DNA from: Chloroflexota bacterium
GTDB lineage: Bacteria > Chloroflexota > Anaerolineae > UBA3071
Assembly: GCA_014383605.1 (NCBI GenBank)
Contig: JACNHM010000367.1
Location: 1-16,892, forward strand
Reading direction: 5' to 3'
DNA length: 16,892 bases
This document shows, one piece after another, positions 3,609 through 16,892 of this stretch. Each line of letters begins with the position of its first letter. Positions within the stretch are counted from its first letter, which is position 1. The notes under the pieces are model-generated. The model ran no database searches. It was given only the letters and a program-made list of their open reading frames with translations, and was not told the DNA's origin. The position numbers and the translations under genes are program-made.

Positions 3609-5021
3609 TCAATGTGCTAACGGCAGCGTGAACCAGAAGCGGCTGCCGCGGCCCGGCTCGCTCTCCACACCGATGCGGCCGCCCTGGGCCTGCACCAGTT
3701 GTCTGGCGATGGTCAGCCCCAGGCCGGAGCCGCCGGTCTCCCGCGAACGGGAGCGGCCGGCGCGCCAGAAGCGGTCGAAGATGTGCGGCAGGTCATCGGG
3801 GGGGATGCCCTCGCCGGTGTCGGCCACGGCAAAGTGCACACTGCCGGCGGCAGATTGGGCGGAAATGGCGATCTGGCCGCCAGCAGGCGTGTGGCGCAGG
3901 GCGTTGCCCAGCAGGTTGCGCAGCACCTGGGCCAAGCGGTCGGGGTCGGCCTGCACGGCGGGCAGGCTGTCGGCGACCTGCACGTCCAGGCTGATCTCTT
4001 TGTCCTCGGCGACCAGGGCAAAGGTGGAGGCGGTGGCCTCGATCACCGGAGCGGCGTCGGTGGGCCGCAGGTTGAGCCGCAGTTGCCCGGCCTCGGCCAG
4101 GGCCAGCTCCCGCAGGTCCTCCACCAGCCGGCTCAGCAAGCGGGTCTCGTCGTAAAGGTTGGCCACCTCGGCCTTATCCAGCGGGTAGACGTCATCGAGC
4201 AAGGCCTGCAGATTGCCCTGCAGCACGGTGAGCGGGGTGCGCAACTCGTGGGCCACGTCGGCCATCAGATTCTGGCGCAGCGTCTCCGCCTCTTGCAATG
4301 CCGAGGTCATCTCGTTGAAGGCATGAGCGACCTCAACGATCTCGGCGCTGCCGCTCACCTCCACCTTTTGACTGAAGTCGCCGGCGGCAACAGACTGTGC
4401 GGCCTTGGTCAGCCGACGCAGCGGCGCGGTCAGGCCGTGGCTGAGAATCGCCCCGACGATCAGTCCCAAACCTACTGCCAGTGCCCCGCCGGCGATCAAT
4501 ACGCTCCGCAGACGATCCAGAAAGCTCTGTTCCAGCGTCCCCAACATCTCCGGCTGAGGCAAGGCGATAAGCAAGTAGCCCACAACCTGGCCGCCATCGG
4601 GTTCGGTGATGGGCAAGGCATTATCCAATTCGGCAGAACTCAGCCGTCTACCCCGGCCCTTGCCGGCACTGTCAAAGACGACCTTGCCGCTGACGTCGGC
4701 CAGCACGGCATCCAGACGTCCCCCCGCCATGCCCGGGGACCCTCCCCTGTCTTGCCAGGGGCCGCCCCAGGGACCGCCCATAGACCTGCCGATCAGGACG
4801 CCCTCAGCCAACAAGCTCTCCACGCCCTCCCAACTGCCCTCTCGTTGGTAGTAGGCTGCCAGTTGCTCCATGCCGCTGCCGGAAGCCATCATCCCACTGC
4901 GGGTGACGTACTCACGAAACCGGACGCCGGTGGCCTGATTGATCAAGATGGCGATGGCGCCCACGGCCACCAGGATCACCAGGGCGAAGGCCAGGGTCAG
5001 CCGCACCCAGAGGCGGTTCAT
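3609..5021 (-). CDS. Sensor histidine kinase, two-component system
   Basis: A 470-residue membrane kinase. The first membrane helix is at about residues 8-28 and the second at 173-194, leaving an extracytoplasmic sensor region of about 140 residues with a Gly/Trp/Pro-rich stretch near 81-100. A HAMP linker (about 195-248) leads to the HisKA helix, with the phospho-acceptor His258 in [11 protein letters not shown]. The HATPase_c domain follows: N-box [10 protein letters not shown] (369-378), G1 DTGEGIP (401-407), F box and G2 GGSGLGL (430-436). All catalytic motifs are present. The ATG overlaps the stop of the response regulator (ATGA), so the two are translationally coupled. Its position after a MacB-type exporter suggests that it senses something exported or an envelope stress, which is an inference. 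A broken paralogue of its ATPase domain lies at 2521-2801. Confidence 0.93.
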
Positions 5022-5722
5022 GCTTCTCTGCCCTCCCCTATCAGGCGGTAGCCGACGCCGTAGACGGTCTGGACGTACACCGGTTTTTTCGGATCCGGCT
5101 CGATCTTGCGGCGCAGGTTCTTGACGTGGCTGTCCACGGTGCGGTCCAGTCCCTCGTAGGTGTAGCCCAGCCCTTTCTCGATGAGTTCAGTGCGGGTGAA
5201 GGCGTGGCCGGGGTTCTCCATCAGCATGCGCAGGAGGTCGAACTCGGTGGGCGTGAGCTCCACAGGCTGGCCGTTCATCTGCACCTCGTGCCGGTCCAGG
5301 TCCATGAGCAGCCGACCGATCTGCAGGATGCGGGGCGGCGCGAAATCGTCGGCGGTACGGCGCAGCACCGCCCGCGTGCGGGCCACGACCTCACGGGGGT
5401 TGAAGGGCTTGGTGATGTAATCGTCGGCACCCAGTTCCAGGCCGAGGATGCGGTCGGTGTCCTCGACGCGGGCCGTGAGCATGATGATGGGCAGGTCGGC
5501 CAGGGTGGCGTCGCTGCGCACGATGCGGGTGATGTCCCAGCCGTCGCGGCCGGGCAGCATCAGGTCGAGCACCACCAGGTCAGGCCGCTCACTGCGGATG
5601 AGGGACAGGGCCATCTCGCCCTCGTAGGCGACGAAGACCTGGTAGCCGGCCTGTTCCAGATAAGACCGCACTAAGCGCACGATGTTTTTGTCGTCGTCTA
5701 CCACCAGAATGCGCTGTGTCAC
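5018..5722 (-). CDS. OmpR/PhoB-family response regulator
   Basis: A 234-residue regulator. The receiver domain (about 1-120) has the acidic pocket Asp9-Asp11, phospho-acceptor Asp53 in VVLDLMLPG, Thr83 and Lys105 in ITKPF. The DNA-binding winged helix (about 135-230) has [12 protein letters not shown], a recognition-helix region with [13 protein letters not shown] and the terminal wing [12 protein letters not shown]. The start is a GTG; GAGGAA lies upstream, and no in-frame ATG gives a plausible start. It should be phosphorylated by the coupled kinase. OmpR-type regulators bind direct repeats with about 11-bp spacing. A module of that general form is found three times in this window (see 14356-14412), but a link to this regulator is speculative. 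Confidence 0.95.
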
Positions 5723-5816: not shown

Positions 5817-7049
<1,233 letters not shown>

Positions 7050-7103
7050 CGCGTTTTCTCCTCTTTGTCCGCATTGAAGCAAAAGTCACACTTTGTTCCG
7101 GCT

Positions 7104-7202: not shown

Positions 7203-8864
7203 TTAGCGGGGACGGAAGGCACCGCCACCGCCCATCATGCGCATGGCGTCAAAGCCGAACTGTCCGGCGTCGGTAGCCTGCATCTGCACCAGCACCTGAT
7301 CACCCTCGTTCAGGCCGCGCACGATCTCCGTGTACAGGCCATCGCTCAGGCCCACCTCCACCGGCACGGCCTGCGGTTCGGCCTGGGGATCGCTGCCCGC
7401 CGACAGCAGCACCTGGTAGAACCCGCCCACGTTCTGCAGGGCCATGGCGGGCACCAGCAGCGCATCCTCCACCTGGCCCACCTGGATGGCCACGTTGGCC
7501 GTCATGCCCACCAGCAAGGGCAACTCCTCCGCCCCCTGCAACGACACGGGCACCTGGTAGACCATCACATCGCCCTGCAGCGTGCCCTGCAACGGCACCG
7601 CCAGCACCTGGCCGCGGAACTGCTGGCCGGGAAAAGCGTCGAAAGTGATCACCGCCGCCTGGCCTGCCTCTATCTGGCGGATCGTCGTCTCGTCCACCGC
7701 CGCCCGCACTCGCAACTCGTCCAGGTTGGCGATGGTCAGAATGCGGCGGTTCTTGTTGAGCAGGTTGCCCGGCTCGACGGCGGTGGCCAGGATGGTACCG
7801 GCGAACGGCGCTCGCATGGTGGCGGCCTGCAGGTCCGCCTCGGCCCCGGCGACGGCCAGCCGTTTCTTGTCCAGACTCGCCTGAGCCGCGGCCAGCTTCA
7901 CCGGGTCCACGCCTTCGTCCAGATCGGCGCGCTTCTGCAGCGCCTGGGCCAGCGCCACTTCCGCCTCGCTGACCGCCAGCTCTGCCTTGGCCAGGTCCAG
8001 TTCGTCCACACCCGCCTGGGCCTCAGCCAGCGCGTCCCCGGCTTCGGCAACGGCGGCGGTGGCCGCGGCGACCTCCGCAGAGGCCACCTGTAATGCGAGC
8101 TGCCGCTGCGACTGTAGGCGCGCCAGCTCGGATCGCGTCTCGGCCAGGGCCTTTTGTTCCTCAGCCAACTCTTCGGCCTGATCGGGCCTGGCCTGGCCTT
8201 GCGAGACCAGCGCTTGCAGCTCGTTGATGCGGCGCTCATGCCAGTCCACGGCGTAGAGCAGGTCGCGCTCGCTCTTGACCAGGCTATCGTATTCTGTCAA
8301 CGTCTGTTGGACGCGCGCCAGGGCCAGGTCGTCCTGGGCAGTCTTCAGGGCTGTTTGCAGTTTACTCGTGTCGGGACTCTGGAGATCCTGCAGGTCCTGT
8401 TTCGCCTGCTCCAGCTTGAGCTCGGCCTGGGCGGCGGCCAGATCAGCCTGGGCGACGTCCAGGTCACTGGCCGGGGTTTGCAGATCGGCCAGCACTTCCT
8501 CCGCTTCCTGCAGATCGCTCTTGGCCTGATCGAGCGCCTGCTGATAGGGCGAGGGGTCAATGGTGGCCATCTCCTGCCCTTCCTGCACCACGTGACCCGC
8601 TTCGACACTGAGCGTCAGCAGCGGTGTGGTGCCCGCGAGCCGATCGAAGTACAGATCTCCCTGCTGCACGGCGTACAGCTCGCCCACCACGCTGAGACTG
8701 GCGCTGAGGTCGCCTCGCTGCACGGCCACCACCTGGGTGAAGCCATCACTGGCGCTGGCAGCGCCGGCCGTCGGCGCGAAACGGGTCTGGTAGAGCCACC
8801 AGCCCCCCGCCGCGATGGCAGAGAGCACGACAACTATGGGCAATAGTCTTCTTAACACTTTCAT
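7203..8864 (-). CDS. HlyD/MacA-family periplasmic adaptor (second copy)
   Basis: A 553-residue membrane-fusion protein. A membrane anchor (about 7-25) precedes the first half of the lipoyl-like barrel-sandwich domain (GHVVQEGQEMATIDPS, about 90-104). A long alpha-helical hairpin rich in Ala, Glu, Gln and Leu runs to about residue 345, and the second half motif is RAPFAGTILA. The beta-barrel region and the membrane-proximal domain (DALLVPAMALQNVGGF onwards) complete it, and the tail is glycine-rich. Adaptors of this type link an ABC permease to outer layers and stimulate ATPase activity. The ATG at 8864 follows GGAAGGAG by about ten bases and begins MKVLRRLLP; an upstream in-frame start lacks such a site. 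It is a close paralogue of the adjacent adaptor and differs mainly in the distal part of the coiled coil. Confidence 0.92.
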   Translation of the reverse strand: MKVLRRLLPIVVVLSAIAAGGWWLYQTRFAPTAGAASASDGFTQVVAVQRGDLSASLSVVGELYAVQQGDLYFDRLAGTTPLLTLSVEAGHVVQEGQEMATIDPSPYQQALDQAKSDLQEAEEVLADLQTPASDLDVAQADLAAAQAELKLEQAKQDLQDLQSPDTSKLQTALKTAQDDLALARVQQTLTEYDSLVKSERDLLYAVDWHERRINELQALVSQGQARPDQAEELAEEQKALAETRSELARLQSQRQLALQVASAEVAAATAAVAEAGDALAEAQAGVDELDLAKAELAVSEAEVALAQALQKRADLDEGVDPVKLAAAQASLDKKRLAVAGAEADLQAATMRAPFAGTILATAVEPGNLLNKNRRILTIANLDELRVRAAVDETTIRQIEAGQAAVITFDAFPGQQFRGQVLAVPLQGTLQGDVMVYQVPVSLQGAEELPLLVGMTANVAIQVGQVEDALLVPAMALQNVGGFYQVLLSAGSDPQAEPQAVPVEVGLSDGLYTEIVRGLNEGDQVLVQMQATDAGQFGFDAMRMMGGGGAFRPR

Positions 8865-8924
8865 AACGTCACTGCTCCTTCCAACGTTCAAGCCGATGTT
8901 CAAGCTGGACTCTGGCGTTCTCGG

Positions 8925-9000: not shown

Positions 9001-10662
9001 CTACTGGCGAGGAGGCTGCTGACCGCCTGGCTGGCCTCCGCCCATCAGTCCGCGTATGGCGCCGAAACCGAACTCGGTCGAGTCACTGGCCTGTAACTGA
9101 ACGACGACCTGGTCGCCCTCGTTCAGCCCGCGCACGATCTCCGTGTACAGGCCATCGCTCAGACCCACCTCCACCGGCACCGCCTGCGGCGCGGCCTGGG
9201 GATCTCTGTCCGGCACCAGCACCTGGTAGAACCCACCCACGTTCTGCAGAGCCATCGCCGGCACCAGCAGCGCGTCCTGCACCTGACCCACCTGGATGGC
9301 CACGTTGGCCGTCATGCCCACCAGCAAGGGCAACTCCTCCGCACCCTGCAACAAAACCGGCACCTCGTACACCATCACGCCCCCTTGCAGCGTGCCCTGC
9401 AGCGGCACCGCCAGCACCTGCCCGCGGAGTTGCTGGCCGAGAAAGGCATCGAAGGTGATCACCGCGGCCTGGCCCACCTCTATCTGGCGGATCGTCGTCT
9501 CGTCCACCAAAGCCCGCACCTGCAGGCTGTCCAGGTTGGCGATGGTCAGAATGCGGCTGTTGCTGTTGACCAGATCACCCCACTCGGCGCCCGTGTCCAG
9601 CACTGTGCCGGCGAACGGCGCGCGGATGGTGGCGGCTTGCAGGTCTGCCTCGGCCACGGCCACGGCCAATCGCCGCTTGTCCACCGTCGCCCGGGCGGCG
9701 GCCAGCTTCACCGCGTCCACGCCCTCATCCAACTCGGAGCGCTTTTCCTGTGCTGCGGCCAGGGCCACCTCGGCCTCGGCGATAGCCATCTTGGCCCTGG
9801 CCAGGTCCAGATCGTCCACCCCCGCCTGGGCCTCGGCCAGCGCGTCCTGCGCTGCCTGCAGATTCTCTTCTGCCCGCCATACTCGCGTGCGCGCATTCAG
9901 CAGGCTGATCTCGGCCTGCGTTTCGGCCCTGGCCACGGCATCCCGGGCGTCCAACAGCACATTGTAGGCGGTCCGCAAGCGGTCCTGGTAGTAGGCGTCG
10001 GAATAGGTCTCGTTGGCCAGCCGGGTGTATTCCGCCGAGCGCTCTGCTTCCTGTTCCCGCAGATCGTACAACTTGTCGGCGGTGGTGCTGTCGGCCTCCA
10101 GGTCACTCAGGTCGGCCTGGGCCTCCACCAGATCCAGCCTGGCGCCGGCCACGTCGGATTGCAGGTCGGCGATGTCGGGGTCGAGCAGATCGTCCAGATC
10201 TTCCTGCGCCTGCCGCACATTGAGCCGGGCGCGGGCGATGGCCAGGTCGGCCTGGGCGATTTCCAGCTCAGTGGCCGGAGTTTGCAGGTCGGCCAGCACT
10301 TCTTCGGCTTCCTGCAGATCGCTCTTGGCCTGGTCGAGCGCCTGCTGATAGGGCGATGGATCAATGGTGGCCAGCGGTTGTCCTGCCTGGACGACGTGGC
10401 CGGCTTCGACGTCCAACGTCAGCAAGGTCGTGGTGCCCGAGGCGCGGTCGAAATAGAGGTCCTCTTGCTGCACGGCGTACAGCTCGCCCACCACGCTGAG
10501 GCTGGCGCTGAGGTCGCCCCGCTGCACCGCCACCACCTGACTGAAGCCGTCGCTGGCGGCGTCGGCCATCGGCGCAAGACGGGTCTGATAGAGCCAGAAC
10601 CCGCCTCCGCCCACAGCGGCCACGACCACCAGGATGGCCAACACGCGTATCACTGTTTTCAT
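9001..10662 (-). CDS. HlyD/MacA-family periplasmic adaptor (first copy)
   Basis: A 553-residue membrane-fusion protein, the same length as the next gene's product. The membrane anchor is at about 4-25. The first barrel-sandwich half is at 86-101 (AGHVVQAGQPLATIDP), a very long helical hairpin at about 104-345, and the second half at 345-375 (IRAPFAGTVLDTG). The beta-barrel lies at about 378-455 and the membrane-proximal domain at 460-525, followed by a Gly/Gln/Pro-rich tail. It and the second copy share WLYQTR-AP after the anchor and nearly identical C-terminal halves. The ATG follows a GGGAGGAAA site that overlaps the stop of the upstream DUF5666 gene. The two may form a mixed adaptor ring or serve different partners; the sequence does not decide. 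Confidence 0.92.
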   Translation of the reverse strand: MKTVIRVLAILVVVAAVGGGGFWLYQTRLAPMADAASDGFSQVVAVQRGDLSASLSVVGELYAVQQEDLYFDRASGTTTLLTLDVEAGHVVQAGQPLATIDPSPYQQALDQAKSDLQEAEEVLADLQTPATELEIAQADLAIARARLNVRQAQEDLDDLLDPDIADLQSDVAGARLDLVEAQADLSDLEADSTTADKLYDLREQEAERSAEYTRLANETYSDAYYQDRLRTAYNVLLDARDAVARAETQAEISLLNARTRVWRAEENLQAAQDALAEAQAGVDDLDLARAKMAIAEAEVALAAAQEKRSELDEGVDAVKLAAARATVDKRRLAVAVAEADLQAATIRAPFAGTVLDTGAEWGDLVNSNSRILTIANLDSLQVRALVDETTIRQIEVGQAAVITFDAFLGQQLRGQVLAVPLQGTLQGGVMVYEVPVLLQGAEELPLLVGMTANVAIQVGQVQDALLVPAMALQNVGGFYQVLVPDRDPQAAPQAVPVEVGLSDGLYTEIVRGLNEGDQVVVQLQASDSTEFGFGAIRGLMGGGQPGGQQPPRQ

Positions 10663-10677: not shown

Positions 10678-11187
10678 CTACTGCGAACCCCCTGTGCCGG
10701 CACCGCCTGGAGCGAAGCGCCCCGCCGGCGCCACTTGTATGGAGCGCGCCGTGATGGTCCCGTCCTCGTTCTCGCTGCCGGAGACGACCACCTGTTCACC
10801 CGGTTCGAGCTCGGCGGCCGTCACCGAGGCATACTTCTCGATCAGCGTGGTCTCCGTGACCTGGACGCGGGTCTGCTGATCGCTGAAGTCGGTGATAATG
10901 AGGGTGTCGCCGCTGATCTCCTCGATCAGACCGACGAGGCCGCCACCTTGCGCACCTTGCGCACCTTGCCCGCCGAAGCGACCAACCCCCCCCTGGCCAG
11001 GTTGCAGTTGCTGAGCGTCGGCGCCCGCCTGATCACCCTGGGCGAACTGGGCCAAACGATCCCGAAACGCTTCCGGCACAGAAGCTTCCGCTTGTTGCTT
11101 GCCGTAGAGCGTGCCGCCGTAGAAACTGCCGGCGACCAGGATCAGTACGACGACGACACCAAGACCTACACGCAGTGTCCGGTTCAT
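10678..11187 (-). CDS. Membrane-anchored DUF5666-like protein
   Basis: A 169-residue protein. One membrane helix (about 7-26) is followed by a charged segment and a Gly/Gln-rich linker (about 60-83). A small beta-rich domain (84-152) carries GLVGLIEEISGDTLIITD and a later EPGEQVVVSG strand pair, which matches the DUF5666 pattern of an OB-like extracytoplasmic domain. The C-terminal tail is again glycine-rich. The ATG at 11187 is preferred to one seven codons upstream because a strong AAGGAGGTG site lies eight bases before it. DUF5666 proteins are often found beside adaptor and ABC genes in Chloroflexota, but their role is unknown. It sits between the ATPase gene and the adaptors in what looks like one transcript. 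Confidence 0.8.
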   Translation of the reverse strand: MNRTLRVGLGVVVVLILVAGSFYGGTLYGKQQAEASVPEAFRDRLAQFAQGDQAGADAQQLQPGQGGVGRFGGQGAQGAQGGGLVGLIEEISGDTLIITDFSDQQTRVQVTETTLIEKYASVTAAELEPGEQVVVSGSENEDGTITARSIQVAPAGRFAPGGAGTGGSQ

Positions 11188-11217
11188 GTGAGAACACCTC
11201 CTTGTCAATTTGCCTGT

Positions 11218-12012
<795 letters not shown>

Positions 12013-12033
12013 AAGATGAACCTCCTGAGAACT

Positions 12034-12077
12034 GGGCATGGTTCAGACCAGTTTCCTGACAAAAATGAACCATGCCC
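12034..12077. promoter_or_regulatory. 12-bp perfect inverted repeat upstream of the exporter operon
   Basis: GGGCATGGTTCA (12034-12045) and TGAACCATGCCC (12066-12077) pair perfectly around a 20-nt loop. It fills the spacer between the tandem-module gene (stop at 12079) and the ATPase ribosome binding site. On the minus strand no T-run follows, so a read-through attenuator, an operator or a dispersed palindrome are all possible. A separate promoter for the exporter operon is not evident. Confidence 0.6.
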
Positions 12078-12078
12078 T

Positions 12079-13290
12079 TTATTCTAACTTATCTACCTCA
12101 GCCTGCAGGTCTGTCTTGATCCCCCCGAAGGACAGCCCATTCTCGGTGCAGTAATCCCGCACCAGCATCAAGCGGTTGGGGATTTCGCCGCCAATGATGG
12201 CCTCGATCTGTTCAACAGGCACGCCCCAGTCCAGCAGGTCGGCAAAGTTTGTCTGACCAGCTACGATCATTTCATCTTCTGCCTCACCCTCTGCTTCCTC
12301 GCCGGATTGCGGCTCATCTTCCGGCGGGCTGTATTCCACTGATTCCAGCTCAATGGTGTACGCATCCAGGTAGGCAATCTGCTCTGCGGTCAGGTCAGCG
12401 TGGCTCTTCAAAATGTCCACCGCCGGGCGCAGCAGATAGGTGTCTTCCTCATCATGCTCCAACTCGTATGGCAGGCCCGTGTAGAGTGCCACGAACCATT
12501 TCATCGAGCCGTTTCCGATCTCTTCCTCCCCCTCAAATTCGGGGTAGATGGTTTCAAAGTCTTGGTTCTGGAAGGTAGCCGGATCGACTTCTGCTGGCAG
12601 GGCAAAAGCACGACTCAGTGTCTCCAGGGGGATGTCGAACAATTCGCTGATCTCGCCAAACCGGTGATTGCCGCGGATGTCAGCGGGAGTACTCGTTCCG
12701 GCACCTTGACCAGCTACGATCATTTCATCTTCTGCCTCACCCTCTGCTTCCTCGCCGGATTGCGGCTCATCTTCCGGCGGGCTGTATTCCACTGATTCCA
12801 GCTCAATGGTGTACGCATCCAGGTAGGCAATCTGCTCTGCGGTCAGGTCAGCGTGGCTCTTCAAAATGTCCACCGCCGGGCGCAGCAGATAGGTGTCTTC
12901 CTCATCATGCTCCAACTCGTATGGCAGGCCCGTGTAGAGTGCCACGAACCATTTCATCGAGCCGTTTCCGATCTCTTCCTCCCCCTCAAATTCGGGGTAG
13001 ATGGTTTCAAAGTCTTGGTTCTGGAAGGTAGCCGGATCGACTTCTGCTGGCAGGGCAAAAGCACGACTCAGTGTCTCCAGGGGGATGTCGAACAATGTGC
13101 TGATTTCGCCAAACCGGTAATTGCCGCGGATGTCAGCGGGAGTACTCGTTCCGGCACCTTGACCAGCCAGGATTCTAGCGGGAGTCCCGGACGATTTGGT
13201 TCCCCACAACCCCAAAGCGGACGCCCCCATAATCCCTCCGAATATCACGATAGCGATGACGACACCTAGAGTTCTCGAGCGCATTTTCAT
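12079..13290 (-). CDS. Membrane-anchored protein of two near-identical 151-residue modules
   Basis: A 403-residue protein of unknown function. A membrane anchor (about 8-28) precedes module 1 (42-192) and module 2 (193-343). The modules differ only at Tyr58/His209 and Thr65/Glu216. Each has an RFGEIS-LFDIPLETLSRAF segment, a WFVALYTGLPYELE segment, a helical LTAEQIAYLDAYTIEL part and an acidic Pro/Glu/Gly-rich linker. The C-terminal part (344-403) differs: it has FADLLDWGVPVEQIEAIIGG and VRDYCTENGLSFGGIK and looks like a shorter relative of the first segment. I recall similar C-terminal segments beside NapH-like proteins in other anaerobes, without being able to name the family. The ATG overlaps the upstream stop (TAATG) and has GAGGAGG six bases before it, so it is translationally coupled to the NapH-like gene. 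Confidence 0.8.
   Translation of the reverse strand: MKMRSRTLGVVIAIVIFGGIMGASALGLWGTKSSGTPARILAGQGAGTSTPADIRGNYRFGEISTLFDIPLETLSRAFALPAEVDPATFQNQDFETIYPEFEGEEEIGNGSMKWFVALYTGLPYELEHDEEDTYLLRPAVDILKSHADLTAEQIAYLDAYTIELESVEYSPPEDEPQSGEEAEGEAEDEMIVAGQGAGTSTPADIRGNHRFGEISELFDIPLETLSRAFALPAEVDPATFQNQDFETIYPEFEGEEEIGNGSMKWFVALYTGLPYELEHDEEDTYLLRPAVDILKSHADLTAEQIAYLDAYTIELESVEYSPPEDEPQSGEEAEGEAEDEMIVAGQTNFADLLDWGVPVEQIEAIIGGEIPNRLMLVRDYCTENGLSFGGIKTDLQAEVDKLE
12254..13159. repeat. Two tandem 453-bp repeats within the coding region
   Basis: Positions 12254-12706 and 12707-13159 are aligned copies with four differences that I can find, all inside 12644-12666 (and the matching 13097-13119). Each copy begins TGACCAGC, and the same octamer follows the second copy at 13160. 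The period is 151 codons, so the reading frame is kept. Confidence 0.9.
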
Positions 13291-14120
13291 TATCGGCCTC
13301 CTCTAGTTGCAAAAACTACAGTATTCTCAACAGGACAGATCGCCTCGGATGTGCATTCCAGGCAACCAATACACTGGTGATCCCGCACCACATCTACAGC
13401 GTGTACGGGGATGTTCATGGGGCAATCACGACTGCAAAGATTACACAACTTGCACTCCGATTCCCGCCGACGGATGGAGAAAATGCTGAACAGGTTGGTG
13501 ATCCCCAGCACGGCCCCGTAGGGACAGACATACTTGCACCAGGGACGCTCCACCACCAAAGAAGCCAGCAGCGTGATCCCCAGCACCACCAGTCCTGTGA
13601 TGGCGACCTCCCCAGTCCAGAAGTTAAACAAGGCATAGTAGGGGTCGATATCACCGAAGGCCAGCTTCCCCGTCATGGCGGTCATATAGAGTACCCAGGC
13701 CAGCATGATGTAGCGCAGATAGCGCAAGTACCGGTCAATGCGGTGAGGGATGAAGTGGTTGTAGCGTTTCTTGAAGAGCCGCTTGCCCAGCTTACCGACC
13801 CACTCCTGGACGCTCCCCAGCGGGCACACCCAGCCGCAGAAGACCGAACCGAACAGAAAAGCCAGAATGAACACCAGAATCATCAAGATGAAAGAAGATT
13901 CGTGGATTTTCTGTGTGAAGGTGCCCACCGCGGCAAGCTGATAGAGGGATACCACGCCCCCAAAGGGGCAAACAGCGTGCAGCGAAGCGTTGGACAGCAG
14001 CGGGATCGCCATCCCGCTATCATCCAGGGTGTGATTGACCGCAATCAAGGCGATCAGCACAAAGAAAAAAATCTGCAACACCGTCCGGGGCCGAACCTGA
14101 TTCGTGCGAGATCGTTTCAT
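13290..14120 (-). CDS. NapH/CcoG-like polyferredoxin membrane protein
   Basis: A 276-residue iron-sulfur membrane protein. Membrane helices lie at about 13-30, 74-94, 133-150 and 170-191. The membrane part carries HAVCPFGG (Cys51) and the two typical motifs CGWVCPLG (Cys95, Cys99) and CKYVCPYGA (Cys195, Cys199). A cytoplasmic ferredoxin-like end has Cys223-226-229-233 followed by Pro, and Cys250-253-256-262 followed by Pro; the last spacing is five residues instead of three. This is the NapH/NosR/CcoG pattern of proteins that pass electrons between the quinone pool and a partner. No nitrate, nitrous oxide or cytochrome oxidase gene is nearby, so the partner is unknown. The ATG at 14120 is chosen because AGGAGG lies six bases upstream; an ATG two codons earlier abuts that site. 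Promoter module A lies about 240 nt upstream. Confidence 0.92.
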   Translation of the reverse strand: MKRSRTNQVRPRTVLQIFFFVLIALIAVNHTLDDSGMAIPLLSNASLHAVCPFGGVVSLYQLAAVGTFTQKIHESSFILMILVFILAFLFGSVFCGWVCPLGSVQEWVGKLGKRLFKKRYNHFIPHRIDRYLRYLRYIMLAWVLYMTAMTGKLAFGDIDPYYALFNFWTGEVAITGLVVLGITLLASLVVERPWCKYVCPYGAVLGITNLFSIFSIRRRESECKLCNLCSRDCPMNIPVHAVDVVRDHQCIGCLECTSEAICPVENTVVFATRGGR

Positions 14121-14167
14121 AATCATCCTCCTGTCAAAGTAGCTTGATAATGTTGAATTTCAGTTCT

Positions 14168-14218
14168 CTGCTGGCCTCCTGACCAGCAGCAACGGGAACC
14201 GGCGGTCAGGAGACCGCC
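14168..14218. repeat. Paired hairpins in the leader of the NapH-like operon
   Basis: CTGCTGG (14168-14174) pairs with CCAGCAG (14183-14189), and GGCGGTC (14201-14207) pairs with GACCGCC (14212-14218). The loop of the first (CCTCCTGA) is complementary to the GTCAGGAG run of the second over about eight bases, so alternative pairings are possible. It lies in the long leader between module A and the ribosome binding site. Confidence 0.6.
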
Positions 14219-14355
14219 TTGGAACAACAGTGAAACAACAGTTTTGTTGCCTTTTCGCCATCATTATGCTAATCTAACAATGTCAAGGTAGTTAAACAAT
14301 GAAACGGGGGAGCTTCTCCTCCTTTCCTCTTTCCCCTCTTTTCCGTTCTACGCCC

Positions 14356-14412
14356 CCAGTATAGCAGAAAATTGTGGAGATTTTATGAAGACGAGATAGG
14401 AGAATTGTAAAA
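14356..14412 (-). promoter_or_regulatory. Shared promoter/operator module, copy A
   Basis: Written on the plus strand, the copy has CCAGTATAGCA (14356-14366; minus-strand -10 box TATACT), ATTGTGGAGA (from 14371) and GAATTGTAAAA (14402-14412). From the -10 box the offsets are 13 and 44 nt, the same as in copies B and C. The two ATTGT cores are 33 bp apart. There is no consensus -35 box, so an activator is likely. It faces the NapH-like operon, with a leader of about 240 nt. I see no gene between 14121 and 14492. Confidence 0.7.
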
Positions 14413-14492
14413 TCGCAGCACAAACAGAAAGGCTACTCCCTCGCTCAGGAAGCGGCCCTTGGATCCTCTCCACACATGGTGGAACGGGTGCT

Positions 14493-14924
14493 TCAGGGCT
14501 CCGAAACTCGGATCTTGCCCAACAAGACCTCCTGACCACTGAAGCCAACCTTCAGCCGGTCGCCGGTGGCCGGCAGGTACCAGCCGATCTCGATCTCATA
14601 GACGCCCGGCGGCGTTTCCGCTGGCAGGGTCAATCGGTAGTGGTCTTCAATAATCTGCCCCGGCTGCCAGGTCGAGGTGGGCGCCTGACCATCCTGGGGC
14701 TGAGCGTCCTCCTGCGCCCAGATGTGATCCGGCGGCTGCAGCAGATGGGTGAAGACGGTGTAATCTTCCTCCATCGGCGAGAGGAATTGCCAGTAGAGGG
14801 TCAGGTGCAGCGTTTCGCCTGGATGCACCACCCGCCGGTCCAGATAGAAGCCGATCAGGGCGATCTTGCCCTCAAAATCGAAATAGACGGGGTTGGGCAG
14901 CCCGATTGCGCTCTCCGCAGGCAA
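14493..14924 (-). pseudogene. Orphan C-terminal domain of a membrane glycosyltransferase-like protein
   Basis: The frame encodes about 143 residues with a beta-sandwich look: YFDFEGKIALIGFYLD, HPGETLHLTLYWQ, DYTVFTHLL, STWQPGQIIEDHYRLTLP and PPGVYEIEIGWY. From memory this is the soluble C-terminal domain found on many Chloroflexota membrane proteins of the ArnT/PMT-like class. The only start is a TTG without a ribosome binding site. Upstream in the same frame is a hydrophobic stretch (SALAWLALSLP) that looks like the end of a last membrane helix, then a stop before any plausible start. The long membrane part is absent, so I read this as a 5'-truncated remnant. It could instead be a small secreted protein if the TTG is used. 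Confidence 0.65.
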
Positions 14925-14984
14925 GACAGAGCCAGCCAGGCCAGAGCCGACAGTCCGGCCCGATCACCCCGTCCCCCAAAGAAA

Positions 14985-15009
14985 CGAGGCGGGGGTTATC
15001 CCCGCCTCG
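14985..15009 (-). terminator. Intrinsic terminator of unit B
   Basis: CGAGGCGGGG (14985-14994) and CCCCGCCTCG (15000-15009) form a perfect 10-bp GC stem with a five-base loop. On the minus strand it is followed by TTTCTTT. It would end a transcript started at module B (15285-15357). Confidence 0.7.
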
Positions 15010-15054
15010 TCATCGAATCCTCACTCCGCTCAGGTTTAGCGCTAACGCCTCCCG

Positions 15055-15234
15055 TTACGGCCGGCCTCCGCGGCCCCTGCCTCCATCGCCCCCTCTCTCC
15101 ATCGGCGAGCCGATGATAGCGTCATACGCTTCCCGGCTGAGATACTGGGGCTCATAGATCTCCCCCGTCTCCCTCTCCAGCGTGGGGATATTTACCCCAT
15201 ACGTTGTCTGTCGTTGTGTTGGTCTTGTGATCAA
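15055..15234 (-). CDS. Candidate small protein, 59 residues, start uncertain
   Basis: On the minus strand a frame ending at 15055 reads in part YGVNIPTLERETGEIYEPQY, then LSREAYDAIIGSPMERGGDG and a Gly/Arg-rich end. Its codons are GC-rich in the third position and the residue pattern looks like a real protein. The only start is a TTG at 15234 with a weak AGGGG before it. The frame stays open upstream past 15360 without any ATG or GTG, so this could also be the C-terminal remnant of a longer gene. It lies between module B and the terminator at 14985-15009, which together would give a transcript of about 300 nt. I do not recognise a family. Confidence 0.4.
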   Translation of the reverse strand: MITRPTQRQTTYGVNIPTLERETGEIYEPQYLSREAYDAIIGSPMERGGDGGRGRGGRP

Positions 15235-15284
15235 CGAGCCAGCCCCTGACTCTCTTCTGCAGAGGCTTTGCCCGTTGTCTGCTT

Positions 15285-15357
15285 CCAGTATGGTAGATGA
15301 TTGTGGATCTTCTATGGAGGCGGGGTGGGGGAATTGTAAAATGGGGGAATTGTAAAA
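15285..15357 (-). promoter_or_regulatory. Shared promoter/operator module, copy B
   Basis: Plus-strand landmarks are CCAGTATGGTA (15285-15295; minus-strand -10 box CATACT), ATTGTGGAT (from 15300) and GAATTGTAAAA (15331-15341), with the same 13 and 44 nt offsets as copies A and C. A second GAATTGTAAAA follows at 15347-15357, so this copy has an extra box. The first 24 nt of the leader resemble those of copy C (CTGGAAGC-GA-AA-GGG, then AAAGCC). Confidence 0.7.
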
Positions 15358-15392
15358 AAGGAACGAGGAGCGGACATTGCATCCGCCCCTCG
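15352..15392 (-). terminator. Intrinsic terminator of the secreted helical protein gene
   Basis: On the plus strand CGAGG (15364-15368) and GCGGA (15370-15374) pair with TCCGC (15382-15386) and CCTCG (15388-15392), with one mismatched pair. On the minus strand the stem is followed by TTCCTTTTTTAC. It lies about 30 nt beyond the stop at 15421, and its T-tract runs directly into the outermost GAATTGTAAAA box of module B. Confidence 0.8.
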
Positions 15393-15420
15393 CTATTGGA
15401 AAATACGACTGTCTGCTCGG

Positions 15421-16215
15421 CTACTCAGTCTGAGCAAGTGTACCGTCGAAGCGTCCCTTCCCACCAGGCCCCCGGCCAACAGGCTGCTGGCCGTCCCGCT
15501 GACCACCTCGCCCGAAGCCGAGTGGTTCATCCCGGTAGTCGCCAGAGCCGTGTCTCTCGTCGAAGGGTTCGTTCAGATGCTCAGCCACCTCCTCCGTCAT
15601 GTGAGCCAGCATCTCGTCAGCCTGCTCCTGGGTGATGCGCCCCTCGGCCACCACCTCGTCCAGTCTCTCGGTGCGGACAGCGATGAAGGCATCGGCGATG
15701 GTCTGCGCATTCACGCCCTCCTGTTCCGCCACATCGGCAATACTTCTGCCATCTTCAAGCTCGGCCAGCAGTTCGTCCACTGTGAGGCCGAGTTGGTCAG
15801 CCGCGACACTGATCGGTGAGTTCTCCGGGCCACCTATCCGGCCGCTCATCCGGCCGCCCATCTGGCCGCCGGGGGCGAATGGCATACCCATGAAGCCGAA
15901 GCCGCTTTCCGTCCGCTCCAGAATCTGGTCTGCCTGCTCCTGGGTCAGCACACCCTCGGACACAGCCTGCTCGATCACCTGCTGGCGGGCGGTGTCCATT
16001 ACCGCGCCGTGCTCATCCACGCTGATGCCCAGAACGTCGGCGACGGCCTCGCCCATCCGGCCCCAGAATTCGGTCATCCCGCCGAAACCACGCTCCCAGC
16101 CAGAGGCTCCCTGCTCCACCAGCCCCTGGGCCGAAACCCCGCTGGCCAGACCGACCACGCCCACCAGGGCAATGAGCCCTGCGAACACACCGATACGTTT
16201 CCAATTGCTCTTCAT
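15421..16215 (-). CDS. Secreted helical repeat protein (DUF2680-like)
   Basis: A 264-residue exported protein. The signal peptide (about 1-29) ends in SGVSA-Q. Two related helical segments follow. The first (about 62-103) has LGISVDEHGAVMD and SEGVLTQEQADQILERTE. The second (about 141-213) has LGLTVDELLAELEDG, IADVAEQEGVNAQTI and AEGRITQEQADEMLAHMTE. The repeated EG-TQEQAD signature resembles DUF2680-type envelope proteins. A Gly/Met-rich linker (105-130) and a Gly/Arg-rich tail (233-258) surround the second segment. The ATG at 16215 follows an AAAGGAG site by six bases; a similar site lies just upstream. Module C lies about 95-150 nt upstream, and an intrinsic terminator follows. The function is unknown. 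Confidence 0.82.
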   Translation of the reverse strand: MKSNWKRIGVFAGLIALVGVVGLASGVSAQGLVEQGASGWERGFGGMTEFWGRMGEAVADVLGISVDEHGAVMDTARQQVIEQAVSEGVLTQEQADQILERTESGFGFMGMPFAPGGQMGGRMSGRIGGPENSPISVAADQLGLTVDELLAELEDGRSIADVAEQEGVNAQTIADAFIAVRTERLDEVVAEGRITQEQADEMLAHMTEEVAEHLNEPFDERHGSGDYRDEPLGFGRGGQRDGQQPVGRGPGGKGRFDGTLAQTE

Positions 16216-16309
16216 GTTGTTCTCCTTTTGTTCTCCTTTAGTTTTGTTTTGGTAGTTGTCATCTGCGGGTTGCCCCCGATCATCCCCGGGGCTTTCCCAT
16301 TTTCCGCTT

Positions 16310-16366
16310 CCAGCATAGCATGTCATTGTGCAGATCCGATGGAGATAGGGTGACGGAATTGTAAAA
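16310..16366 (-). promoter_or_regulatory. Shared promoter/operator module, copy C
   Basis: Plus-strand landmarks are CCAGCATAGCA (16310-16320; minus-strand -10 box TATGCT), ATTGTGCAGA (from 16325) and GAATTGTAAAA (16356-16366), with offsets of 13 and 44 nt from the -10 box. It precedes the gene for the secreted helical protein. The MITE-like element begins four bases beyond its outer box. Confidence 0.7.
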
Positions 16367-16369
16367 CCG

Positions 16370-16590
16370 GGGATGGTTCCCTAGTTTGTGATGAGGAAGG
16401 GAATTATCTGGGGCCGTAGCGACACCCTGTTTGCCTTTCTGGGTCACATTCGTCCCCGGAATACGCCGTCTTTCCCCAAAAAGCCGCCTTTTGCCCATAT
16501 CTGGGAGAGCATTCCCGGACTGGGATAGGCCCGGCGAACACTGGAGTCCCACGAATATCTCGTACACATCACAGCGTAGGGAACCATCCC
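16370..16590. mobile_element. MITE-like element with terminal inverted repeats
   Basis: GGGATGGTTCCCTA (16370-16383) is perfectly complementary to TAGGGAACCATCCC (16577-16590). After three mismatches the pairing resumes for TGTGATG, giving arms of about 24 bp around a 221-bp element. The interior shows no convincing gene and no transposase. I see no clear target-site duplication, so transposition is not proven. Confidence 0.5.
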
Positions 16591-16892
16591 AGCCTTTCAC
16601 GTGACCTCCAGCCGTTTCCAAAGCACATTTGGACGTAGAACAAATGGTCAAGCACATAATTCGGAGATTATGTCGTCCGGTTTTTTGCGCTCTGGCTTGG
16701 CTTCAGCCACACTCATCTTTGGCGTTCTCCTTACGAGCAGTGTTGGATACTGCAATCCAACACTACTCGAAGAAACGCCTTTCACTGGTATCACGCTCTA
16801 GCGTAACGGTTGTGCAACCAGAGCCCAAACCGTTCTGAACCGGCCAAAATCGGCACTTTTACAACCGAACAGCTTTGTGGTAACCTTATCGT
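16591..16892. other. Non-coding end region with a 10-bp palindrome
   Basis: No gene is supported here. AGTGTTGGAT (16739-16748) and ATCCAACACT (16755-16764) form a perfect 10-bp stem with a six-base loop. CATAAT (16658-16663) pairs with ATTATG (16670-16675). The first palindrome is similar in style, but not in sequence, to the one at 5780-5812. Short frames that cross it look like chance translations. Confidence 0.6.

Follow-up and report, generated by a model that had tools for sequence, protein, structure and literature searches.

A probable BaeR/PhoB-type local regulon with three repeat-containing promoter copies in a Chloroflexota contig

Three promoter copies and the described systems they resemble

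In Escherichia coli, the response regulator BaeR of the BaeSR two-component system is bound upstream of its direct targets, the mdtABCD-baeSR operon and spy, according to PMC7657598, and PMC3799227 gives the BaeR consensus as TTTTTCTCCATDATTGGC / TCTNCANAA, with a common CTNCA element. PhoB, whose Pho box consists of 11-bp direct repeats that replace the −35 box, and CreB, with its cre/blr-tag TTCACnnnnnnTTCAC, provide further points of comparison. Here we compare with these systems a locus in contig JACNHM010000367.1 of a Chloroflexota bacterium (assembly GCA_014383605.1), analyzed as one window, a stretch of 16,892 nucleotides. The window contains three copies of a repeat module, at 14356–14412, 15285–15341, and 16310–16366, and an OmpR-family response regulator gene at 5018–5722 (minus strand). 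Our analyses indicate that the copies are probably minus-strand promoters of an autoregulated BaeR/PhoB-type local regulon, activated by an OmpR/PhoB-subfamily regulator that is most likely the product of 5018–5722.

An earlier note on this DNA had described the copies as rigidly spaced and free of indels. Indeed, they align without gaps, with 34 of 57 columns invariant and pairwise identities of 44, 39, and 41 of 57; 44 is also the highest value for any 57-nt pair in the 3.3-kb region, for which 20 dinucleotide shuffles reach a maximum of 34. A consensus pattern matched three times in the window and not once in 200 shuffles, although this test is not independent, since the pattern was derived from the copies. 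On the minus strand, the copies read TTTTACAATTC-N11-CTYCATnnnAn-nTnCACAATnn-nnTnCYATRCTGG. Each consists of four 11-bp units of the type nTYCAYAAn, the second of which is degenerate, and a TATACT-like −10 box comes after them at a fixed register. In copy 1, the operator spans 14369–14412, with the units TTTTACAATTC / TCCTATCTCGT / CTTCATAAAAT / CTCCACAATTT, and the −10 box (TATACT) lies at 14358–14363, in a register common to the sites of other genomes and E. coli mdtA. The corresponding positions are 15298–15341 and 15287–15292 (CATACT) in copy 2, and 16323–16366 and 16312–16317 (TATGCT) in copy 3. The ATTGT cores lie 33 bp (3 × 11) apart with ATGRAG one step in, as the note had stated. A σ70 consensus scan of 13000–16892 returned two hexamer pairs (1.9 expected), neither of which uses the −10 box of a copy. 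Thus, the copies carry 11-bp direct repeats beside a −10 box with no −35 box, the arrangement of OmpR/PhoB-subfamily operators, and this part of the original description also holds. The 57-nt copies are real, but the conserved block is longer, ∼75 nt including ∼19 nt past the −10 box, and identity drops to background outside both of its edges.

The copies head three minus-strand units: a DUF2680 gene (copy 3), a truncated DUF2202 remnant (copy 2), and a nine-gene napH/MacAB-like string (copy 1). The string runs on the same strand from 14126 to 3609 with gaps of at most 120 nt, in the order napH-like, p403, ABC ATPase, DUF5666, two HlyD-type genes, MacB-type permease, OmpR-family regulator, and histidine kinase. 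The regulator belongs to the OmpR/PhoB subfamily by its Pfam matches to the receiver domain (103.2 bits, cut-off 30.2) and Trans_reg_C (97.7 bits, cut-off 26.2). Overall identity is indecisive on its subtype, at 42% with BaeR of E. coli, 41% with PhoB, and 36% with CreB. Its recognition helix, however, is BaeR-like, sharing 12 of 15 residues with BaeR RTIDSHIKNLRRKLE and having V/I or I/L exchanges at the other 3, and is unlike those of PhoB (RTVDVHIRRLRKALE) and CreB (RTVDTHIKTLRAKLR).

The likeness to BaeSR extends to several features. The CTCCAT/CTNCA unit fits the BaeR consensus as given in PMC3799227, and TCTCCACAA and TCTGCACAA are contained in copies 1 and 3, copy 2 not being a full match. 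The E. coli system and, by prediction, that of the window each combine an efflux operon ending in two-component genes with a further target that encodes a secreted protein, and the E. coli plan, with BaeR acting at mdtABCD-baeSR and spy (PMC7657598), is the one proposed here for the window. The systems differ in that the window's pump is MacAB-like and not RND, its predicted targets add NapH-like and DUF2202 proteins, and its regulator is overall no nearer to BaeR than to PhoB. The Pho box shares the 11-bp repeats that replace the −35 box, whereas the helix residues of PhoB differ and the regulator falls below the PhoB equivalog cut-off. The cre/blr-tag shares the half-site type and 11-bp period (PMC3660660), whereas CreB has a different helix, creD scores only 2.0 (see below), and the regulator, at 36% identity, falls below the CreB equivalog cut-off.

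The site and the regulator in related genomes

The window is close to Anaerolineales, and the site was analyzed in related genomes. A matrix from the three copies was scanned over 80 napH loci (L001–L080), 75 of which have enough upstream DNA. In 16 of the 75 (1.1 expected), the best match of the locus was a same-strand site no more than 350 nt upstream of napH, compared to 1 to 3 of 75 for control matrices (reversed, complemented, and five column-permuted). Columns 1–42 alone placed 12 and columns 23–57 alone 15 of the 75. No exact occurrence of a 31-base pattern turned up among the 80 napH loci. When three mismatches at most were allowed, a related 35-base pattern was present in 8 genomes out of 400 in the order versus 2 for the backward control. 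Looser CTTCAYA runs with an 11-bp period scored above all 200 shuffles in 25 of 76 napH loci by our count; the loci concerned carry the titles Chloroflexi, Actinomycetes/Propionibacteriaceae, and Spirochaetales, with a weaker signal in Clostridia, a search that we treat as descriptive because the shuffles were mononucleotide. Related 11-bp repeats thus precede napH-like genes in other phyla too. A matrix built from 10 sites of other genomes scored the window copies at 43.3, 38.8, and 30.6, with the next position at −1.3 on the minus strand and the best plus-strand position at 2.7; this test is partly circular because the sites were found using window-derived patterns or matrices.

A sequence-only model, R1, built from 13 sites, was run against 121 genomes of the order of L001, the closest relative, and the regulator protein was searched in the same genomes, with 150 of the matches listed being used. 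R1 matched at E ≤ 0.1 in 71 of the 121 genomes. At E ≤ 0.01, at least 26 of 55 matches were followed, on the same strand and no more than 2.5 kb away, by the start of a listed regulator homolog, and none by one on the wrong strand, where ∼0.05% would be expected by chance under uniform placement. Four of the 26 are training sites; without these, the count at E ≤ 0.01 was at least 22 of 51. At E ≤ 0.001, listed regulator homologs were likewise preceded by at least 15 of 32 matches.

The frames downstream of 30 R1 loci, assigned by eye, comprised 11 short membrane proteins, 7 DUF2680-like secreted proteins, and 1 regulator directly; the remaining loci had HlyD, DUF5666, DUF4405, rhodanese-like, or unplaceable frames (including L139, L146, L150, L152, and L155). 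Pfam searches with nine of the proteins that follow matches, and with the DUF2202 protein of locus L021, gave HlyD (L141), DUF4405 (L159), and DUF2202 (L021) above the cut-off and DUF2680 (L134, L147) and DUF5666 (L143, L145) below it, with nothing above the cut-off for L133, L140, and L150. The second frame after the L159 match is also DUF2202, above the cut-off. All of these families except DUF4405 occur in the window as well. Matches lie upstream of envelope/redox-type and two-component genes; the earlier note had named sites before envelope or redox genes in a genome scan as support for its claim of a local regulon, which gains support. Ten of the 30 R1 sites fall within a frame of 150 codons or more on one or other strand, a possible gene in each case. 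Sites mostly inside genes, the outcome that the note had set against its own claim, were thus not seen, but the result is not a clean one.

The short membrane proteins (∼120–160 aa) are encoded directly 3′ of the operator, often with the regulator gene next (L081–L083, L086, L087, L131–L133, L136–L138, L140, L142, L154, L156, and L160). Five of the frames had no Pfam family above the cut-off (those of L081 and L133 are the same gene). It is possible that these proteins are a signaling accessory of the two-component system.

We also compared site and helix among 50 regulators of the fetched loci, scoring sites within 2.5 kb upstream. Sites scoring at least 8 accompanied 20 of 29 regulators with a BaeR-like helix versus 2 of 21 others; at thresholds of 5, 10, and 15, the counts were 21 and 4, 18 and 1, and 11 and 1, respectively, and on the opposite strand, at a threshold of 8 and in a count that included one gene twice, 2 and 1. 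In addition, the gene order fusion protein, ATPase, MacB, regulator, kinase recurs in L126 and L128, where site-like repeats with CTCCAGA-type units lie upstream of the fusion-protein gene (scores of 15.9 and 21.3, respectively). With this comparative support, the product of 5018–5722, one candidate in the earlier note, is the best candidate for the protein that would bind the copies.

Comparison with E. coli promoters and weighing of the alternatives

For the comparison with E. coli, we scored the 350 nt upstream of 12 genes. The 13-site matrix gave spy 18.9, mdtA 14.4, phoB 5.7, pstS 4.4, kdpF 4.2, and creD 2.0, with phoB and pstS, a point of likeness to the Pho system, ranking third and fourth; scores were negative at creA, ompF, ompC, cpxP, cpxR, and torC. 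The mdtA −10 box, TACACT, sits in register with the 13-site model. Five matrices from relatives' sites (one including the window's three copies) each ranked spy and mdtA first and second of the 12 genes. The five are the 13-site matrix and matrices made from 10 non-window sites, all 20 other sites, nine napH/DUF2680 sites, and 20 regulator-upstream sites, the last of which gave mdtA 10.0 and pstS 7.3. By comparison, 4 Mb of simulated E. coli-like sequence contained no position scoring 12 or more and one scoring 10 or more, and the best score in 100 kb of real E. coli sequence was 9.1.

A number of observations weigh against a BaeR-type regulon under the window's own regulator. The matrix of the window's three copies alone ranked pstS first (9.5), ahead of mdtA (7.8) and spy (1.1), and the assignment to the BaeR subtype therefore rests on the relatives. 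The R1 training sites were themselves picked with window-derived patterns, 10 being taken out of 20 candidate sites, and a filtered R1 search of E. coli missed mdtA and matched spy only in part. The NCBIfam equivalog models for MtrA (NF040689, the top-scoring; 232.9 bits, cut-off 300) and PhoB (TIGR02154; 231.9 bits, cut-off 296.2) outscore that for BaeR on the regulator (NF007982; 214.5 bits, cut-off 380), CreB following (NF008296; 196.3 bits, cut-off 273), and the kinase scores 258.7 bits with the BaeS model (NF012163, cut-off 500); because every score falls below its cut-off, we do not file the system as BaeR, BaeS, PhoB, MtrA, or CreB. The helix comparison is confounded by kinship, 24 of the 29 positives coming from the order used to train the model and 20 of the 21 negatives from mixed-phyla napH loci; within napH loci alone, the counts were 3 of 5 versus 2 of 20. 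The window regulator has no site within 2.5 kb because it is located at the end of its operon, and its link to copy 1 is a predicted operon ∼8.6 kb long. Its nearest orthologs (60–68% identity) have weaker or variant sites, with CTCCAGA in L123, L125, L126, and L128 and CTCCACA/CTCCATA in L121, L122, and L124, and the near ortholog L119 has no site near the regulator gene. With the three-copy matrix, the site of the closest relative, L001, reaches a score of just 4.5; this weak site, with a TATACT box, precedes a 190-codon gene (a 32% match to the window DUF2680 protein, with no Pfam family), napH, and a p403 homolog. Finally, the ∼19 nt conserved 3′ of the −10 box are without explanation.

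This last observation bears on the alternative that best survives, namely that the three copies are the remains of one duplicated promoter segment and owe their similarity to common descent more than to selected contacts. Operator contacts alone do not explain the ∼19 nt; the module may have been duplicated at an earlier time, and the claim of the earlier note that the copies do not stem from recent duplication is therefore secured only in part. The edges of the 75-nt block are sharp, and even the degenerate second unit is identical at 15 of 33 positions summed over the three copy pairs. However, similar units in the same register precede similar genes in other genomes, which duplication within the window cannot cause, and we regard descent as the main source of the similarity as a rather doubtful explanation, if one that is compatible with function.

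It is unlikely that the copies are genuine OmpR/PhoB-type operators bound by a different response regulator, such as a PhoB ortholog. The preference of the three-copy matrix for pstS would fit such a regulator, and OmpR-family proteins are numerous: each of the 121 genomes has between 1 and 12 matches at E ≤ 1e-45 among a capped number of candidates scored. Set against this, R1 matches precede homologs of the window's own regulator in at least 26 of 55 cases, the helix resembles that of BaeR and not that of PhoB, and the gene families that follow R1 matches overlap the window's own operon.

The orientation proposed in the earlier note, plus-strand promoters lacking a −35 box, has very little probability, and we rejected it. 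The plus-strand CCAGTATAG could pass for a −10-like box, but with the promoter on the minus strand it is the −10 region TATACTGG reversed, and GAATTGTAAAA is the upstream end (TTTTACAATTC). Identified genes between 3609 and 16215 are all on the minus strand, nine plus-strand frames near the copies have no Pfam family at E ≤ 0.01, and the relatives' sites, at napH loci and R1 matches alike, point into napH or regulator operons. Equally improbable are RNA elements (a leader or attenuator) in place of DNA operators, rejected because no Rfam match reached the gathering score; conservation past the −10 box would suit them, but the most conserved columns are 11-bp periodic and lie upstream of that box.

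Taking the copies as promoters of an autoregulated BaeR/PhoB-type regulon, we propose a mechanism built from these findings and established knowledge of the OmpR/PhoB family. The kinase encoded at 3609–5021 would phosphorylate the regulator, and phosphorylated dimers would occupy, on one face of the DNA, four tandem 11-bp half-sites of the type nTYCAYAAn, of which the second is degenerate in the window. Because the end of the last half-site is immediately 5′ of the −10 box, at the −35 position, we infer that the regulator would recruit σ70 polymerase. Transcripts would be predicted to start on the minus strand near 14351, 15280, and 16305. Copy 3 would then drive the secreted DUF2680 protein, copy 2 the leftover of the DUF2202 gene, and copy 1 a predicted cotranscript of napH, p403, and the MacAB-like exporter genes with the regulator and kinase genes at its end, so that a positive autoregulatory loop would be closed through the napH operon, as in E. 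coli mdtABCD-baeSR. From the target genes and the analogy with BaeSR, our guess is that the signal would be envelope or redox stress.

The mechanism is a known one, of which this is apparently an undescribed member: no description of the regulon was found in a literature search that covered few subscription-journal papers, nor was there anything on it among the Chloroflexi-specific papers listed. If correct, it gives a regulator–operator pair and a target list in Chloroflexota and ties DUF2680, DUF2202, DUF5666, and p403 to one likely envelope/redox response. Its main interest lies in its breadth and in the resemblance between its promoter geometry and that of E. coli mdtA, which suggests that this geometry also operates in a far distant phylum. 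More tentatively, with somewhat less than even confidence, we suggest that an ancient BaeR-type circuit, unchanged in its promoter geometry from Chloroflexota to Enterobacteria, governs transferable envelope/redox modules (NapH-like electron transfer, DUF2680, DUF2202, DUF5666, MacAB-like export, and its own two-component genes), operator and helix having stayed matched while targets were exchanged.

Genes of the three units and neighboring features

The first gene after copy 3 encodes the secreted DUF2680-type protein (15421–16215, minus strand; Pfam PF10925 and homologs). We chose the start at 16215 by a GGAG ribosome-site-like sequence upstream and a signal-like N terminus; the longest frame begins at 16326, within the operator of copy 3. 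An AlphaFold model of this protein (mean pLDDT 70.3, pTM 0.44), made with the window protein and 79 of the 120 homologs listed, yielded 44 matches in the Protein Data Bank (PDB) at E ≤ 10, of which none reached E ≤ 0.001 and none was Spy. A Spy-like fold was thus rejected, and the analogy with Spy is functional only. The gene is followed by a strong intrinsic terminator (15362–15394, minus strand; a 15-bp stem and then CCTTTTTT, fold z −6.1).

Copy 2 comes after this terminator and before a 59-codon frame. The first unit of copy 2 has one additional 16-nt tandem copy (15342–15357, minus strand), which adjoins the T-tract of the terminator. The first frame after copy 2 (15055–15234, minus strand) is the apparent DUF2202 remnant, the C-terminal end only, which matches at 53% the DUF2202 protein that directly precedes napH in L021; against Pfam DUF2202 it covers profile positions 140–161 of 162 with an E value of 0.017, below the cut-off. 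This gene for a ferritin-like protein has apparently shrunk to its C-terminal end while a promoter copy and a possible terminator persist, the latter a stem-loop followed by TTTCTTT (14960–15015, minus strand; fold z −3.4) that is absent from the terminator scan. Between the copy-2 and copy-1 units, a 143-codon frame with a TTG start (14493–14924) looks like a C-terminal gene remnant, with a weak MG2 match and no family above the cut-off.

The operon genes after copy 1, all on the minus strand, encode the NapH-like membrane 4Fe-4S protein (13290–14126), p403 (12079–13290), the ABC ATPase (11218–12039), DUF5666 (10678–11208), the two HlyD-type fusion proteins (9001–10662 and 7203–8903), the MacB-type permease (5817–7082), and the regulator and sensor histidine kinase, the best NCBIfam score of the latter being BaeS_SmeS, below the cut-off. 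p403 has no match in Pfam or NCBIfam, and 57 of the 80 loci, from several phyla, have a p403-like match alongside the napH-like gene. Within p403, a 453-bp tandem duplication (12254–13167, 99% matches), probably recent, doubles the main domain, which is single-copy in the L001 homolog (265 aa). A plasmid collection contained zero matches to 14300–16450. Near the end of the window, at 16734–16769, lies a 15-nt inverted repeat with a 6-nt loop and 93% complementarity.

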